In this document: positions 3,077 to 55,854 of the stretch, piece after piece
Numbering within the stretch: the stretch's first letter is position 1
Layout of the letters: the number at the start of each line of letters is the position of its first letter
From: Pseudarthrobacter sulfonivorans
GTDB lineage: Bacteria > Actinomycetota > Actinomycetes > Actinomycetales > Micrococcaceae
DNA length: 64,000 nt
Direction: 5' to 3'
NCBI RefSeq assembly: GCF_014712225.1
Contig: NZ_JACXBW010000002.1
Location: 62,001-126,000, forward strand
Position numbers and translations under genes: made by a program
The notes under the pieces: model-generated
What the model saw: only the letters and a program-made list of their open reading frames with translations
What the model was told of the DNA's origin: nothing
Databases searched by the model: none

Positions 3077-3142
3077 CCCAACTAAGTAGCAGCAGATGTC
3101 GTTTTGGGCGCTCAAAACGACATCTACTGCTACCCAGTTGGG
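3077..3142. repeat. 66-bp palindromic repeat, copy 1
   Basis: The ends are CCCAACT and AGTTGGG. The arms of about 29 nt are nearly perfectly complementary, with an 8-nt centre (GGGCGCTC). The stem carries GTCG paired with CGAC, where copies 2 and 3 have GCCG paired with CGGC. It lies immediately downstream of the ABC permease gene ending at 3149, so it could act as a transcript-end hairpin. Other copies are at 33817, 34872 and 55789. Confidence 0.9.
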
Positions 3143-10500: not shown

Positions 10501-10771
10501 GAAAACTCCTGGCTAGGGATACGGGCACTGCTAAGGTCAGGCTACCGGCTGGCGCGCACAACCGCCCCTAAATGACAGGGCGTGAAAGTGCGGGAAAGTG
10601 GCTGTTTCCCTCAGGGTTGCAGCACTTGTCCGGCAAGACATGACCCTCGGCCCAGGCGTACGATCCGTGGTCTTCGTGATTGCCGCTCCCTGGTGGTTAA
10701 GCCACCCAACGCCAGTTGCGACCTGCCAAGACTACCAAAACCTTCGGTGGCGCGCGGGTAGGCTGGTAAGC

Positions 10772-22863: not shown

Positions 22864-24249
22864 ATGCATTCCAACCTTCGCAGAGGGCTGCTTGGCACCC
22901 TCTTTGCCGGCGGGCTCTTAGCCTTCGGCGCCACCGCAGCCAGCGCAGCGGACACAACCAGCGGACAGGACCTTACGGCCTCCGCACTGGTCTCAGCGGC
23001 GACATCCGCAAACACGACGACGTTGGGCCTGCTGGGTGGCTCAACGCAGTCGGACACCACGGATGTCGCCGCTGCGCTCGACGTCAACCTGAACCTCGGG
23101 GACGGCCTCCTCGGTGGCACCAACGGCACCACCACTGACAACGGCGGCACCACCGCCGATGTCGCAGCCGCAGCCGACGTCAGCATTGGCGGCACCGACG
23201 GCACCACTGACGGCGGCACCACCGCCGACGTCGCGGCCGCAGTCGACGTCAACCTCGGCGGCACCAACGGCCTCCTCGGCAACAGTGATACCGCTGCCGA
23301 CGTCGCAGCCGCAGTCGACGTCAACCTCGGCGGCACCAACGGCCTCCTCGGCAACAGTGATACCGCTGCCGACGTCACGGCCGCAGTCGACGTCAACCTC
23401 GGCGGCACCAACGGCCTCGCCAGCGGCACCAGCAGCACCACCGACGGCGGCACCACCGCCGTCGTCGCGGCCGCAGTCGACGTCAACCTCGGCGGCACCA
23501 ACGGCACAACCGACGGTGGAACCACCACCGACGGCGGCACCACCGCCGACGTCGCGGCCGCAGTCGACGTCAACCTCGGCGGCCCCAACAGCACCACCGA
23601 CGGCGGCACCACCGCGGACGTCGCGGCCGCAGTCGACGTCAACCTCGGCGGCACCAACGGCCTCCTCGGCAACACCAACAGCACCACCGACGGCGGAACC
23701 ACCACCGACGTCGCGGCCGCAGTCGACGTCAACCTCGGCGGCACCAACGGCCTCCTCGGCAACACCGATGGCGGCTTGGATGCCGCAGTCGATCTCGGTC
23801 TGGGCCTGGACGCCTCCGGGCCTTTGAATGACTCTGGCGTGGGTGTCGGTGGTTCGGTAATCATCGGCGGATCCACGGATGGCGCCGAGACTCCGGGCAC
23901 GACGGATCCGGGCACCACAGACCCGGGCACCACGGATCCCGGCACAGGCACGACGGGTGGCACGGACACCCCGGCTGACGGAACGGATACCCCGGGCAAC
24001 GGAACGAACACAGCTGACACTTCAGGGTCGGCAACAACGGGCATCACCGTAGCTCCTGCCGGAACCATCACCGGTGTCGCAACAACGGGAGAAGCAGCAG
24101 CCGCAGGTGCTGCGGCAGCAAGCTCACCCACGCAGGGTGGCAGCGAAACGCTGGCCAAGACAGGTCTTGACGCCTCACTGATCCCGGTCGCGCTGATCCT
24201 CCTGGTGGCCGGCGTGCTGCTGCTGCTCAGGCGCCGCCGGACCTCCTAA
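22864..24249 (+). CDS. Repeat-built cell-wall surface protein with LAxTG sorting signal
   Basis: 461 residues from the ATG at 22864 (AGGAGA 9 nt upstream). Signal peptide about residues 1-34, ending in ASA-AD. About nine repeats with the core DVAAAVDVNLGGTNG run over roughly residues 67-310, separated by GLLGN, STTDGG or GGTTA linkers. Then comes a TDPGTTDPGT stalk, and the C-terminal signal LAKTG, a hydrophobic helix and RRRRTS. LAxTG is the motif of class E sortases in high-GC Gram-positives. No sortase gene is in the window. The repeats are almost identical in DNA, suggesting recent expansion. The ligand is unknown. Confidence 0.85.
   Translation: MHSNLRRGLLGTLFAGGLLAFGATAASAADTTSGQDLTASALVSAATSANTTTLGLLGGSTQSDTTDVAAALDVNLNLGDGLLGGTNGTTTDNGGTTADVAAAADVSIGGTDGTTDGGTTADVAAAVDVNLGGTNGLLGNSDTAADVAAAVDVNLGGTNGLLGNSDTAADVTAAVDVNLGGTNGLASGTSSTTDGGTTAVVAAAVDVNLGGTNGTTDGGTTTDGGTTADVAAAVDVNLGGPNSTTDGGTTADVAAAVDVNLGGTNGLLGNTNSTTDGGTTTDVAAAVDVNLGGTNGLLGNTDGGLDAAVDLGLGLDASGPLNDSGVGVGGSVIIGGSTDGAETPGTTDPGTTDPGTTDPGTGTTGGTDTPADGTDTPGNGTNTADTSGSATTGITVAPAGTITGVATTGEAAAAGAAAASSPTQGGSETLAKTGLDASLIPVALILLVAGVLLLLRRRRTS
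23062..23790. repeat. Intragenic tandem repeats of the wall protein
   Basis: Near-identical blocks with the DNA core GCGGCCGCAGTCGACGTCAA recur through the gene at variable spacing, encoding the DVAAAVDVNLGGTNG units. Seven are close copies and the first two are divergent. Such arrays usually vary in copy number between strains. Confidence 0.88.
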
Positions 24250-30354: not shown

Positions 30355-30371
30355 ATACCCGATAACGAACG

Positions 30372-30406
30372 ACGGCGCCTCTCCCCTCTGCGGGGACAGG
30401 CGCCGT
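30372..30406 (+). terminator. Hairpin after the protease/small ORF unit
   Basis: ACGGCGCCT (30372-30380) pairs with AGGCGCCGT (30398-30406), and the internal CCCC pairs with GGGG. It lies 18 nt after the stop of the 73-codon ORF. No clear U-run follows. Confidence 0.6.
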
Positions 30407-30542
30407 CGGGCGTTCCAAGACTCATCGACTGATCCCCACCGGCCCCCTCGCCTCGCAAGCTCGGCCAGGGAACCCTGCCGGAGTGGGCCCTGCGCCGTTT
30501 TCAGTCATGAAAAGGGCCCTGCTGGAGCAATCGATGAAAGGG

Positions 30543-32434: not shown

Positions 32435-33787
32435 ATGAATATCTACACCACTGTGCCCAGCGGCGAACAGGTGGTCCAGGAACTGCCGTGGCGGTGGAAG
32501 GTCCAGGGCCGGATCTTCGTGATCGGCGGCCTCGGCTTTATGTTTGACGCGTGGGACGTGACGCTCAACGGCATCCTCATCCCGTTACTCTCCACCCACT
32601 GGGCCCTGTCGGCCGGTGAAGTCGCCTGGGTTGGTGCGGCCAACCTGATCGGCATGGCGCTGGGCGCTTTTGTGTGGGGAACCATTGCGGACACCATCGG
32701 GCGGAAAAAGGCGTTTACGGCCACGCTGCTGATCTTCTCGCTGTTCACCGTGCTGGGCGCCTTCTCCCCCGACTTCGTCTGGTTCTGCGTGTTCCGGTTT
32801 ATGGCCGGCTTTGGTTTGGGCGGCTGCATTCCCGTGGACTATGCGCTGGTCGGCGAGTTCACTCCCCGGAAGCAGCGCGGCAAGGTCCTCACCGCGATGG
32901 ACGGCTGGTGGCCGGTGGGCGCTGCCCTGGCCGGCTTTGTATCCGCTGCCTTGGTGGGCATTTTCGGGGACTGGCGGCTGACCATGCTGGTGATGGTGCT
33001 GCCGGCGCTCCTGGTGTTCTGGATCCGGCGCAGCGTTCCGGAGTCTCCGCTGTTCCTGATCCGGAAGGGCCGCCGGGAGGAAGCCGCCAAGGTCATTGAC
33101 GACCTCGTGGCAGCCACCGGCGCCGAACCCCGCGCGTACAGCCTGCCCGACGCGCAGGATGTTCCGCGGCTGTCCGCCGGCAGCGCGTGGCATCAGCTGC
33201 GGCTGGTGTGGCAGTTCAACTGGAGGATCACGACGACCGCGTGGGCCCTGTTCTTCAGCATCCTGCTGGTCTACTACCTGTCCCTGACGTGGATGCCGAG
33301 GATCCTGATCGGTGCCGGGTTCGCCGAGTACAAGGCCTTTGTGACCACGGCGTCCATGTCGGCTGTGGGCCTGTTGGGCGTAGTGGTGGCGGCCCTGTTG
33401 GTGGAGCGTGTCGGCCGCAAGTGGATCCTGGCCATCACGGGCCCGCTCGCCGCCCTGACCCTGGTGATCGTGGCGTTTGTGGTGGATATCCCGTCGGCTG
33501 CGATCTTCTGGCTGCTCGTGTTCGGCTTTGTGGTCCAGGTGGCCATCCCGGTGCTCTACGCCTATGTGTCCGAGCTGTACCCCACGGAATTGCGCGGCAC
33601 GGGCTTCGGCTGGGCATCCACGTTCTCCCGGCTGGGCGCAGGCTTCGGGCCGCTCATCTTCGCGAACTACTTCTGGCCGGAGCTGGGCCTGGCCACATCC
33701 TTCGCCCTGGCCGGCGGCCTGGTCCTGGTGGCAGTGCTCTGGATGGCGTTCTTCTCCCCCGAAACGAAGCTGCGCCGCCTCGACTAA
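32435..33787 (+). CDS. MFS sugar/aromatic-acid-type transporter
   Basis: About 450 residues with 12 membrane segments. The start is the ATG at 32435, with an AGGAGG 8 nt upstream. MFS signatures: GTIADTIGRKKAF between helices 2 and 3, PVDYALVGEFTPRKQRG near helix 4-5, and LLVERVGRKWIL between helices 8 and 9. ELYPTELRGTGFG near helix 10-11 is typical of the sugar porter and AAHS-like branch (SV2/niacin transporter-like). The substrate is unknown. The gene is divergent from purH and convergent with the DUF559 gene, with a 66-bp palindrome between. Confidence 0.9.
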   Translation: MNIYTTVPSGEQVVQELPWRWKVQGRIFVIGGLGFMFDAWDVTLNGILIPLLSTHWALSAGEVAWVGAANLIGMALGAFVWGTIADTIGRKKAFTATLLIFSLFTVLGAFSPDFVWFCVFRFMAGFGLGGCIPVDYALVGEFTPRKQRGKVLTAMDGWWPVGAALAGFVSAALVGIFGDWRLTMLVMVLPALLVFWIRRSVPESPLFLIRKGRREEAAKVIDDLVAATGAEPRAYSLPDAQDVPRLSAGSAWHQLRLVWQFNWRITTTAWALFFSILLVYYLSLTWMPRILIGAGFAEYKAFVTTASMSAVGLLGVVVAALLVERVGRKWILAITGPLAALTLVIVAFVVDIPSAAIFWLLVFGFVVQVAIPVLYAYVSELYPTELRGTGFGWASTFSRLGAGFGPLIFANYFWPELGLATSFALAGGLVLVAVLWMAFFSPETKLRRLD

Positions 33788-33816: not shown

Positions 33817-33882
33817 CCCAACTAAGTAGCAGCAGATGCCGTTTTGAGGGCTCAGAACGGCATCTGCTGCTACTTACTTGGG
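33817..33882. repeat. 66-bp palindromic repeat, copy 2
   Basis: Same layout as copy 1, with centre GAGGGCTC and the GCCG/CGGC stem variant. The right end overlaps the last codons of the DUF559 gene: its AAG TAA lies in the repeat arm. It is located between convergent genes. Confidence 0.9.
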
Positions 33883-34815
33883 CAGCCAGCCGCGGCTGAG
33901 CAGCGCTGAGCGGACCTTGGCGACGGCGGCCCGCGCTTCGTTCTGCATGTGGCGTTTGGAGATCCTGACCAGCAGCCAGCCAGCTCGCGCGAAGTCCTCT
34001 TCACGGGCTATGTCCTTGACGATCTGTGCCACGTCCGAATGGCCCTCGCCCTCATACTCAACCCCAACCTTTTGTTCCGGATAGGCAAGATCCGGTTGAC
34101 GTACGACGCCGGCGCCCAGTTCCGTGCGCACATTCAGTTGCGGTTCCGGCAGCCCTGCATACTCCAGTGCCAGCCGCAGTTTCGTTTCCGGGGCGGAGTC
34201 GGATCCGATCCGCGCCTGTTCAAGGGCAAGCCGGGCTTTCCGGATTCCAGGAGTTCCCTTATGTCGGTCAAGCATGCCGGCAAGGTCGTCCGGAGTTGCA
34301 TACGGTTCAGACCGCCCCTCGAACTCCGGCCTAGGAATCCGCAGCAGGTGGTCGGCCACCACAGTCAGCTCGTCGATGCTCATCCTCCGGGAACAGTCCA
34401 GCCAGGTGCGGGTCCGCGAAGTGATCAGCAGGCCATTTACGCTGACAATCTCGTCGCCAAAGAACTGCCCTCGATGCCCCCGCACTCCCGCCCGACGCGG
34501 CATTGCCATGGTATCGGGCCGGGAAATGTGAGTGATGGAAGCATCTGTGCCCGGGAGGAAGCCCGGGAACGACCATAACTTGAAGGCCGTCGCATGGGAC
34601 GCGGCCGAGAATTCCGTGACCAGGGTCAGCGGCCGGACCACGGCCGGTTGTCCGCTGGACGTCTCGCCCAGCAGCTGCCTGATCCCCCTGCTCGGAGTAA
34701 TCAACGAAGGGTGACGCAGCCGCCGAACTGTTGCACCGGCGTCGGCCGCTTCTTGGAAGGTAAACGCTGCGGAAGGCAGCCGTTCCGGCAGTGGCTGCGG
34801 AGTCTTCATGGGCAT
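33874..34815 (-). CDS. DUF559/Vsr-like nuclease-fold protein with N-terminal AbiEi-like region
   Basis: 313 residues. The N-terminal half holds a helix-rich region of the type in AbiEi-like proteins (LTLVTEFSAASHATAFKLW, then VNGLLITSRTRTWLDCSRRM). The C-terminal part (about 205-300) has the DUF559 pattern related to Vsr: ETKLRLALEYAGLPEP, RQPDLAYPEQKVGVEYEGEGH, and KDIAREEDFARAGWLLVRIS, giving a PD-(E/D)xK-like core (Glu, Asp, and VEYEG). Function is not established for these actinobacterial proteins. The gene is bracketed by 66-bp palindromes at 33817 and 34872, and its stop codon lies inside the first. Confidence 0.82.
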   Translation of the reverse strand: MPMKTPQPLPERLPSAAFTFQEAADAGATVRRLRHPSLITPSRGIRQLLGETSSGQPAVVRPLTLVTEFSAASHATAFKLWSFPGFLPGTDASITHISRPDTMAMPRRAGVRGHRGQFFGDEIVSVNGLLITSRTRTWLDCSRRMSIDELTVVADHLLRIPRPEFEGRSEPYATPDDLAGMLDRHKGTPGIRKARLALEQARIGSDSAPETKLRLALEYAGLPEPQLNVRTELGAGVVRQPDLAYPEQKVGVEYEGEGHSDVAQIVKDIAREEDFARAGWLLVRISKRHMQNEARAAVAKVRSALLSRGWLPK

Positions 34816-34871
34816 ATCGTGGCAAATTTTGCGCCGCGCCGTGAAAGTTATCCACAGGTGCGCCCCACCGG

Positions 34872-34937
34872 CCCAACCAGGTAGCAGCAGATGCCGTTTT
34901 GAAGGCTCAAAACGGCATCTGCTGCTACTTACTTGGG
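34872..34937. repeat. 66-bp palindromic repeat, copy 3
   Basis: Same orientation as copy 2 (centre GAAGGCTC) and the same GCCG/CGGC stem. It lies between the start of the DUF559 gene and the end of purN. The left end reads CCCAACC in place of CCCAACT. Confidence 0.9.
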
Positions 34938-34957
34938 TGGGTACTCACTTGGGTGGG
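34926..34957. repeat. 16-bp tandem duplication spanning the purN stop
   Basis: TACTTACTTGGGTGGG (34926-34941) and TACTCACTTGGGTGGG (34942-34957) differ at one base. On the minus strand each reads CCC ACC CAA G plus TAA or TGA context. The purN stop (34945-34947) lies in the second unit, and the first merges with palindrome copy 3. Confidence 0.85.
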
Positions 34958-55788: not shown

Positions 55789-55854
55789 CCCAACTAGGTA
55801 GCAGCAGATGTCGTTATGAGCCCTCAAAACGACATCTGCTGCTACCTAGTTGGG
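55789..55854. repeat. 66-bp palindromic repeat, copy 4
   Basis: CCCAACT and AGTTGGG ends. The centre GAGCCCTC is the reverse complement of the centre of copy 2, so this copy is inverted. It has the GTCG/CGAC stem as in copy 1, and a T-to-A change in one arm makes a mismatch. It lies between convergent genes. Confidence 0.9.

Follow-up and report, generated by a model that had tools for sequence, protein, structure and literature searches.

A palindrome-bracketed gene for a predicted AbiEi-nuclease fusion and its dispersed palindrome partners in Pseudarthrobacter sulfonivorans and relatives

Sequence comparison strongly supports a partnership between a nuclease-like gene and a genome-wide family of palindromes, replicated across lineages and within one genome. 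The reading that we favour, and hold to be rather probable, is that of a palindrome-reading nuclease with 66-bp palindromes as its non-autonomous partners, which would spread or be rewritten in a homing-like manner.

The window analysed here is a stretch of 64,000 nucleotides (G000:C12:62001-126000) from the 4.93-Mb genome under study, G000. Repeat finding located four 66-bp palindromes in the window, two of which stand alone while the other two, 1055 bp apart, bracket the nuclease-like gene (Table 1). For the upstream one, the repeat finder returned arms at 34867-34902 and 34907-34942 that are 86% complementary; the arms of the downstream one are 94% complementary, and the gene's stop codon, TAA, occupies positions 33874-33876 within it. 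Both the bracketing and the placement of the stop codon, as given in a preliminary description of this DNA, are confirmed. Two arguments that accompanied them fared worse. The same orientation of the two copies carries little meaning, because the elements are near-perfect palindromes and their loops vary among relatives. The break in the purN-purH adjacency is made by the MFS gene, which lies between purN and purH also in relatives that have no nuclease there. The second in-frame ATG (codon 3) of the nuclease-like gene is the usual alignment start of its homologues. Elsewhere in the window, an Rfam search at gathering scores had as its sole match a ZMP/ZTP riboswitch away from the locus (RF01750, 41.1 bits; window 10643-10729, minus strand). 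Repeats with a spacing of mostly 69-90 bp at 23101-23802 possibly belong to a repetitive protein, and a GC-rich, terminator-like inverted repeat at 30364-30414, near purH, has similar counterparts near purH in many relatives.

Table 1. Features of the locus and of the solo palindromes, in window coordinates.
Feature	Position	Strand	Remarks
5' palindrome, upstream end of element	34872..34937	.	66 bp, type A core CAGCAGATG
3' palindrome	33817..33882	.	66 bp, type A; holds the gene's stop codon
Nuclease-like gene, 313 aa	33874..34815	-	Predicted AbiEi-like DNA-binding part and Vsr/I-Bth0305I-fold nuclease part
AbiEi-like part, residues 5-202	34210..34803	-	PADLOC AbiEi and fold match 6y8q
Nuclease-fold part, residues 205-311	33883..34203	-	Fold matches 3r3p, 1cw0; conservation
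DnaA-box-like site TTATCCACA (TGTGGATAA in the gene's direction)	34848..34856	+	Between 5' palindrome and start codon
Solo palindrome, type A	3077..3142	.	Orthologous position in G057: type B palindrome
Solo palindrome, type A	55789..55854	.	G057: partly decayed, B-like; G013: absent
MFS transporter gene	32474-33787		Neighbour of the nuclease-like gene; purN on the other side

The 313-residue protein is predicted to be an AbiEi-like DNA-binding part joined to a nuclease of the Vsr/I-Bth0305I fold. In PADLOC, AbiEi models are the only ones that match, in the N-terminal part (E 9.2e-10). An AlphaFold2 model, built from an alignment of 43 sequences (A2), has a mean pLDDT of 87.9, and its comparison with the PDB matched residues 205-311 to the catalytic domain of I-Bth0305I (3r3p; Z 12.7, rmsd 2.5, 95 aligned), NGO0050 (3hrl; Z 11.1) and Vsr (1cw0; Z 10.1). 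Residues 5-202 matched the Streptococcus agalactiae AbiEi antitoxin (6y8q; Z 11.0, rmsd 4.5, 174 aligned) and Rv2827c (1zel; Z 7.7, a level that can be unspecific). Foldseek E-values for the model are weak, the best for 3r3p being 0.044; searching PDB sequences with a profile yielded a single match, at chance level, and an NCBIfam search of three proteins returned no family. None of the 43 aligned sequences departs from E210, D242, E253, H259 and D268; these residues would form an EDxHD motif, and their role is presumed to be catalytic. The earlier label of a DUF559 nuclease-like protein needs a correction: the Pfam model DUF559 (PF04480) scores 14.3 bits (E 0.039), below its curated cut-off of 20.6 bits, as does MTES_1575 (PF18741) with 23 bits (E 8e-5) under a cut-off of 38.2 bits. 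Both models are matched at E up to 1 by all 43 members of A2. According to PMC7319586, AbiEi recognises its own promoter through two inverted repeats of 23 bp that are separated by 3 bp; this binding of paired inverted repeats gave a first hint that the 313-residue protein may read palindromes.

The unit of gene and palindromes is conserved in relatives. Protein matches were found in 150 of 150 genomes of the genus, some of them very weak (G091, G119); G000 holds one copy of the nuclease subfamily, and at least six of the 150 genomes hold two full-length copies at an identity of at least 66%. In a set of 80 named loci, a palindrome was scored when 22 or more of its 33 arm positions were paired. 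By this threshold, one was found upstream of the gene in 73, downstream in 62 and on both sides in 58, a clear palindrome being missing from one or both sides in 22. A stricter threshold gave 62, 56 and 48 loci, respectively. Random positions in the same loci reached the palindrome score in three of 320 cases. Within an element, the 5' and 3' palindromes mismatch at 17% of positions, versus 43% between different elements. The 3' palindrome has the own 5' palindrome as its closest match in no more than 28 of 58 loci.

Across the genus, the parts keep a fixed order: a palindrome, the DnaA-like box, the gene and a second palindrome. The motif TGTGGATAA, whose inverse corresponds to the DnaA-box consensus (TTATCCACA or TTGTCCACA), lies within 200 bp upstream of the gene in 73 of the 80 named loci and occurs 74 times in their 526,233 bp; in the window it is found only at the site before the gene. 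It stands 47 or 48 bp before the aligned coding match in 58 of the 73 loci, in a single orientation throughout. Among the seven loci without TGTGGATAA, four have TGTGGACAA and two have near-matches; in the last, L160, which has neither the motif nor the upstream palindrome, purN reaches as far as the gene. All of 20 further loci (18 of type E, described below) carry a DnaA-like site at -42 to -49.

The gene mostly stays beside purN. An orthologue of 68-82% identity adjoins purN in 11 of the 20 purN loci fetched, with an alignment that covers only 172 of 313 residues in L128 and a longer interval in L125. The MFS gene lies on its far side in ten of these 11 (in L131, the contig ends there), and the nuclease gene is inverted relative to purN in two (L119, L120). 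L135 has a 39% homologue at the purN site. Eight of the 20 loci have no nuclease gene between purN and the MFS gene; in two of the eight (L117, L132), a 35-37% homologue lies between the MFS gene and purH. The purN-MFS place is clean in G093 and G143, and holds a lone palindrome of family F in G041 and G095. Family F palindromes (CGAATGCTCTATCACTTACGGTCG...) were located alone between purN and the MFS gene at L121:8516-8575 and L122:9086-9149. A differently built palindrome (around CCCTCAAAAC / GTTTTGAGGG) was seen at L119:16203-16271, L281:2875-2939, L284:15688-15756 and L123:15499-15541.

Across the 80 named loci, 50 lie beside purN or the MFS gene and two more near purH only; eight share a second flank context, 11 a third, and nine are single, which amounts to up to 12 contexts, a number in which diverged flanks could hide common ones. 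No target-site duplication was evident at aligned filled and empty sites, whose flanks have diverged too far to allow a firm conclusion. The collections searched give few indications that plasmids or phages carry the gene: six plasmid records matched, with three Arthrobacter replicons (0.75-1.35 Mb) covering most of the protein, and one phage record matched at 36% identity. One copy, 69% identical, lies at NZ_AP024648.1:847123-848055; the replicon that carries it, 1.35 Mb in size, belongs to Arthrobacter sp. StoSoilB13 and is recorded as a plasmid. A 57% identical gene without clear palindromes was found on a scaffold labelled Sporosarcina beigongshangi (L226), either by transfer or by contamination.

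The palindromes that bracket the gene belong to a dispersed family. Allowing up to three mismatches, the half-site pattern was found in G000 44 times forward and 41 times in reverse, whereas the reversed pattern occurred 5 and 7 times. These half-sites resolve into 41 palindrome places (four unpaired matches omitted) with the consensus arm CCCAACTAGGTAGCAGCAGATGTCGTTTTGAGC, and at least 22 of 33 arm positions are paired in 39 of the 41, the exceptions being C34:144286 with 21 and C1:55849 with 13. Given about 41 copies in the genome and the three hits at 320 random positions, the bracketing palindromes are not a product of chance. Two palindromes of C34 lie 0.8 kb apart, and inspection of the open frames between them recognised no nuclease.

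Palindrome types follow the resident nuclease. At the 30 best orthologues, the own gene among them, three core types were distinguished, A (CAGCAGATG-like), B (CGCTAAGTG/CGCTATCTG) and C (CGCATTTGTTG), beside single others; some of these loci pass the strict palindrome finder on one side only. Half-sites of each type were counted in 28 genomes, forward plus reverse with up to two mismatches, and these counts include up to four from the gene-flanking copies. Type A half-sites number 13-101 in 11 genomes with an A gene, 1-11 in eight with a B gene and 5-16 in nine with a C gene, a slight overlap, as G138 (A gene) has 13 and C-gene genomes have up to 16. Type B half-sites number 25-115 in the eight B-gene genomes, 0-17 in A-gene and 0-3 in C-gene genomes; type C half-sites, 80-165 in the nine C-gene genomes and 0-1 in those with an A or a B gene. 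The Mann-Whitney test gave P values of about 1e-5 (A), 2e-5 (B) and 4e-6 (C); these are too small, because nuclease types partly follow species groups and the tests are not independent. Left out of the type tests were G048 (A-like; 13, 1, 1) and G110 (another type; 2, 1, 58). Ten other genomes lack a close nuclease, and nine of them have 11 or fewer half-sites of any type. The tenth, G119, with a very weak nuclease match, has 43 of type A, and G093 has a B-like palindrome and no close nuclease. Possibly G119 lost its nuclease gene while the palindromes survived.

The in-genome replicate is a paralogue of 45-50% identity in G000 (C57:59582-60508), flanked by another palindrome family, E. At E-type loci, a palindrome was found upstream in 17 of 18 and downstream in 15 of 18. 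E half-sites (up to three mismatches) were counted in 20 genomes that have the paralogue (8-31) and in 20 taken to lack it (0-17; P 1e-6). The latter include G035, where two E palindromes at a distance of about 1.05 kb may enclose a divergent element. A third similar palindrome lies about 370 bp past the end of the E-type element at L136:2930-2989 and L149:1059-1118. More distant nucleases were represented by 26 loci, 23 from other genera and three distant paralogues within the genus: the own downstream flank was the best of 29 matches to the upstream flank in 17 of them, and in 15 the own-flank match scored above the 99th percentile for mismatched pairs, although the long end repeats of L250 and L254 may have another cause. 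Whether other DUF559 genes carry the same element, as had been asked, has an answer other than the one foreseen. The second nuclease has family E instead; two of the five DUF559 hits of G000, L004 and L005, lie between separate end repeats that match each other, with scores of 79 and 65 against 25 or less for mismatched flanks, and L001-L003 have none. In the distant DUF559-type genes L004 (C11) and L005 (C1), these end repeats span about 65-77 bp, yet are of other sequences, and a DnaA-like box lies upstream of each gene.

Dispersed palindromes change type at shared positions. The orthologous place of the solo palindrome at 3077 is of type B in G057, mixed in G076 and of type A in G089; a second dispersed site is B-like in G120 and G093, A-like in G089, of another kind in G029 and without a palindrome in G041, G143, G138 and G095. 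A systematic comparison set the 41 places of G000 against 33 palindrome loci in G057, of which 27 came from the type B search and six from the type A search, leaving out the two palindromes at G057's own nuclease gene. It revealed 22 common positions, 20 by both flanks and two by one, with flank identities of 82-94% (74% for one flank). At 15 of these common positions, a type A core in G000 stands against a B or B-like one in G057, with both arms switched at 13; at the other seven, the core is unswitched. Among the 15 switched pairs, outer arms are more similar between true partners than between permuted ones (0.859 versus 0.831, P 0.012), whereas the core (0.463 versus 0.461 permuted), the inner part and the loop retain no site-specific memory. 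Idiosyncratic outer bases are common to both genomes at some switched sites (C34:143480, C1:382904). This pattern, statistically weak and drawn from one genome pair, fits a conversion of the middle of an existing palindrome. The switching of cores in place suggests a homing-like conversion, and a homing endonuclease is the nearest fold match of the nuclease part. Of the mobile cassette that had been proposed, there remains a palindrome-bounded unit, found in up to 12 contexts and inverted in two of 11 purN-site orthologues; travel by transposition is not shown, the gene mostly staying at purN and the dispersed palindromes looking rewritten in place and not freshly inserted.

In these alignments, the N-terminal half of the protein tracks palindrome divergence better than the nuclease half. 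Across 38 purN-site loci, the distances between palindromes correlate with those between nucleases (r 0.40) and between purN genes (r 0.31). Given purN as the species control, the partial Mantel r is 0.32 for the whole nuclease (P 0.0005), 0.58 for the N-terminal half (P 0.0005) and 0.07 for the C-terminal part, the last third (P 0.21); for the N-terminal half given that C-terminal part, it is 0.71 (P 0.0005). A correlation with purN given the nuclease still persists (r 0.19, P 0.003). A search for specificity-residue columns and sliding windows over 57 loci were exploratory: the windows, which lack a species control, have broad peaks at residues 25-61 and 97-133, with a partial r of at most 0.34 anywhere and an unadjusted r of 0.30-0.48 with the core in the nuclease part.

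From these comparisons, we infer a mechanism that would involve cutting, conversion and a coupling to replication. The N-terminal AbiEi-like part would bind the palindrome arms, and the C-terminal part, of Vsr or homing type, would cut or nick the palindrome, perhaps during replication, in an extruded or single-stranded state. Through repair from a further copy, the current type could then enter old palindromes and occasionally new sites, while the DnaA-like box before the gene would link its expression to the initiation of replication. Taken as a whole, the system could represent a new class of intragenomic drive, in which a fusion of AbiEi with a homing-endonuclease-like part rewrites palindromes to the current type, timed by a DnaA box, across Micrococcales and with one palindrome family per nuclease lineage; this wider proposal we advance tentatively, with slightly more doubt than belief.

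The main rival holds that the palindromes are binding sites under selection, that is, operators or chromosomal sites, each of which mutated after the protein had changed its specificity, with no movement involved and with the 5' palindrome as an autoregulatory operator, as in AbiEi. The control that AbiEi exerts on its own gene by way of paired inverted repeats immediately before it, described in PMC7319586, agrees with this view, as do the near-fixed distance of the 5' palindrome before the gene, the tracking of the palindrome by the N-terminal half and the age of many palindrome positions, common to relatives. We nonetheless regard it as unlikely, because several core positions changed at 15 sites, in both arms at 13, which would need selection at each, and because it accounts neither for the palindrome that overlaps the stop codon, nor for those at sites which the genomes do not share, nor for half-site numbers that range from 13 to 165.

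Less probable still is a RAYT-like transposition, in which palindromes are copied into hot spots and old copies are lost, so that types differ at orthologous positions. Such copying would account for palindromes that are present in one genome and absent from the same place in others (three sites), as for family F, where G095 aligns with G093 and G143, which have none, with a gap of 0. The idiosyncratic outer bases shared at C34:143480 and C1:382904 point instead to the same palindrome altered in place, and 22 of 41 positions are common to one relative. A role in defence or self/non-self marking, by which the nuclease would attack DNA according to its palindrome content while chromosomal palindromes protect or recruit, seems very improbable. 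It draws on the PADLOC match of the AbiEi-like part and on a nuclease fold related to Vsr and to 5hmC-specific restriction enzymes, but no AbiEii toxin or defence gene was found among the three neighbouring genes tested (purN, purH, MFS), only AbiEi models match in PADLOC, the purN location is mostly stable, and neither the similarity of the palindromes within an element nor the in-place switching is explained; the defence cassette of the preliminary description is thus not borne out. That ordinary intergenic palindromes, such as terminators, stand beside the gene by chance has a negligible probability: some copies do closely follow a stop codon (e.g. C34:143480), but 58 of 80 loci against three of 320 random positions and the type-specific partnership with the nuclease speak against it.

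Among known systems, AbiE is the closest to the N-terminal part: residues 5-202 match the AbiEi fold and the PADLOC AbiEi models, and AbiEi too binds repeats before its own gene, according to PMC7319586. Here, in contrast, no AbiEii (DUF1814) toxin adjoins, the AbiEi part is fused to a nuclease, a second palindrome covers the gene end, and dozens lie elsewhere in the genome. The nuclease part shares its fold with I-Bth0305I and Vsr, and spread by cutting and conversion serves as a working analogy; unlike a homing endonuclease gene, the gene here stands alone between two intact palindromes, outside any intron or intein, and does not interrupt its presumed target. As to DUF559 and MTES_1575, both matched by the A2 members at permissive E-values, the window protein falls below both cut-offs; among the open-access papers listed for DUF559, none names palindromes as partners in its title or abstract opening, and searches of an open-access library gave no earlier description of this nuclease-palindrome system.

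REP-like palindromes occur in many bacterial genomes, and REPs flank RAYT genes; to our knowledge, the partner enzymes known for REP-like palindromes are HUH transposases (RAYTs). According to PMC8049555, RAYTs are single-copy genes that pass on vertically and duplicate REPINs. The likeness lies in that the nuclease gene is mostly single-copy and vertical and mostly stays put, and the dispersed palindromes match those that flank it. A RAYT/REPIN system proper was considered and rejected: the Y1 (HUH) transposase model PF01797 has no match in G000 at E 0.001, whereas 5 of 14 control genomes match. As the defining enzyme is unmatched in the genome, the system appears to work like RAYT/REPIN without being one. 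The enzyme here is an AbiEi-nuclease fusion unrelated to RAYT, the palindrome is one continuous 66-bp inverted repeat, and its cores change type where they stand. That the system is new is suggested by the unrelated enzyme together with this switching of cores, and a cautious reader could place it in the REP-partner kind. If true, the core switching between related species would make the concerted evolution of dispersed DNA directly testable, a function would be suggested for a set of unnamed AbiEi-nuclease fusion proteins, and a second, unrelated partner enzyme, found in three natural types and one in-genome replicate, would mean that such partnerships arose repeatedly.
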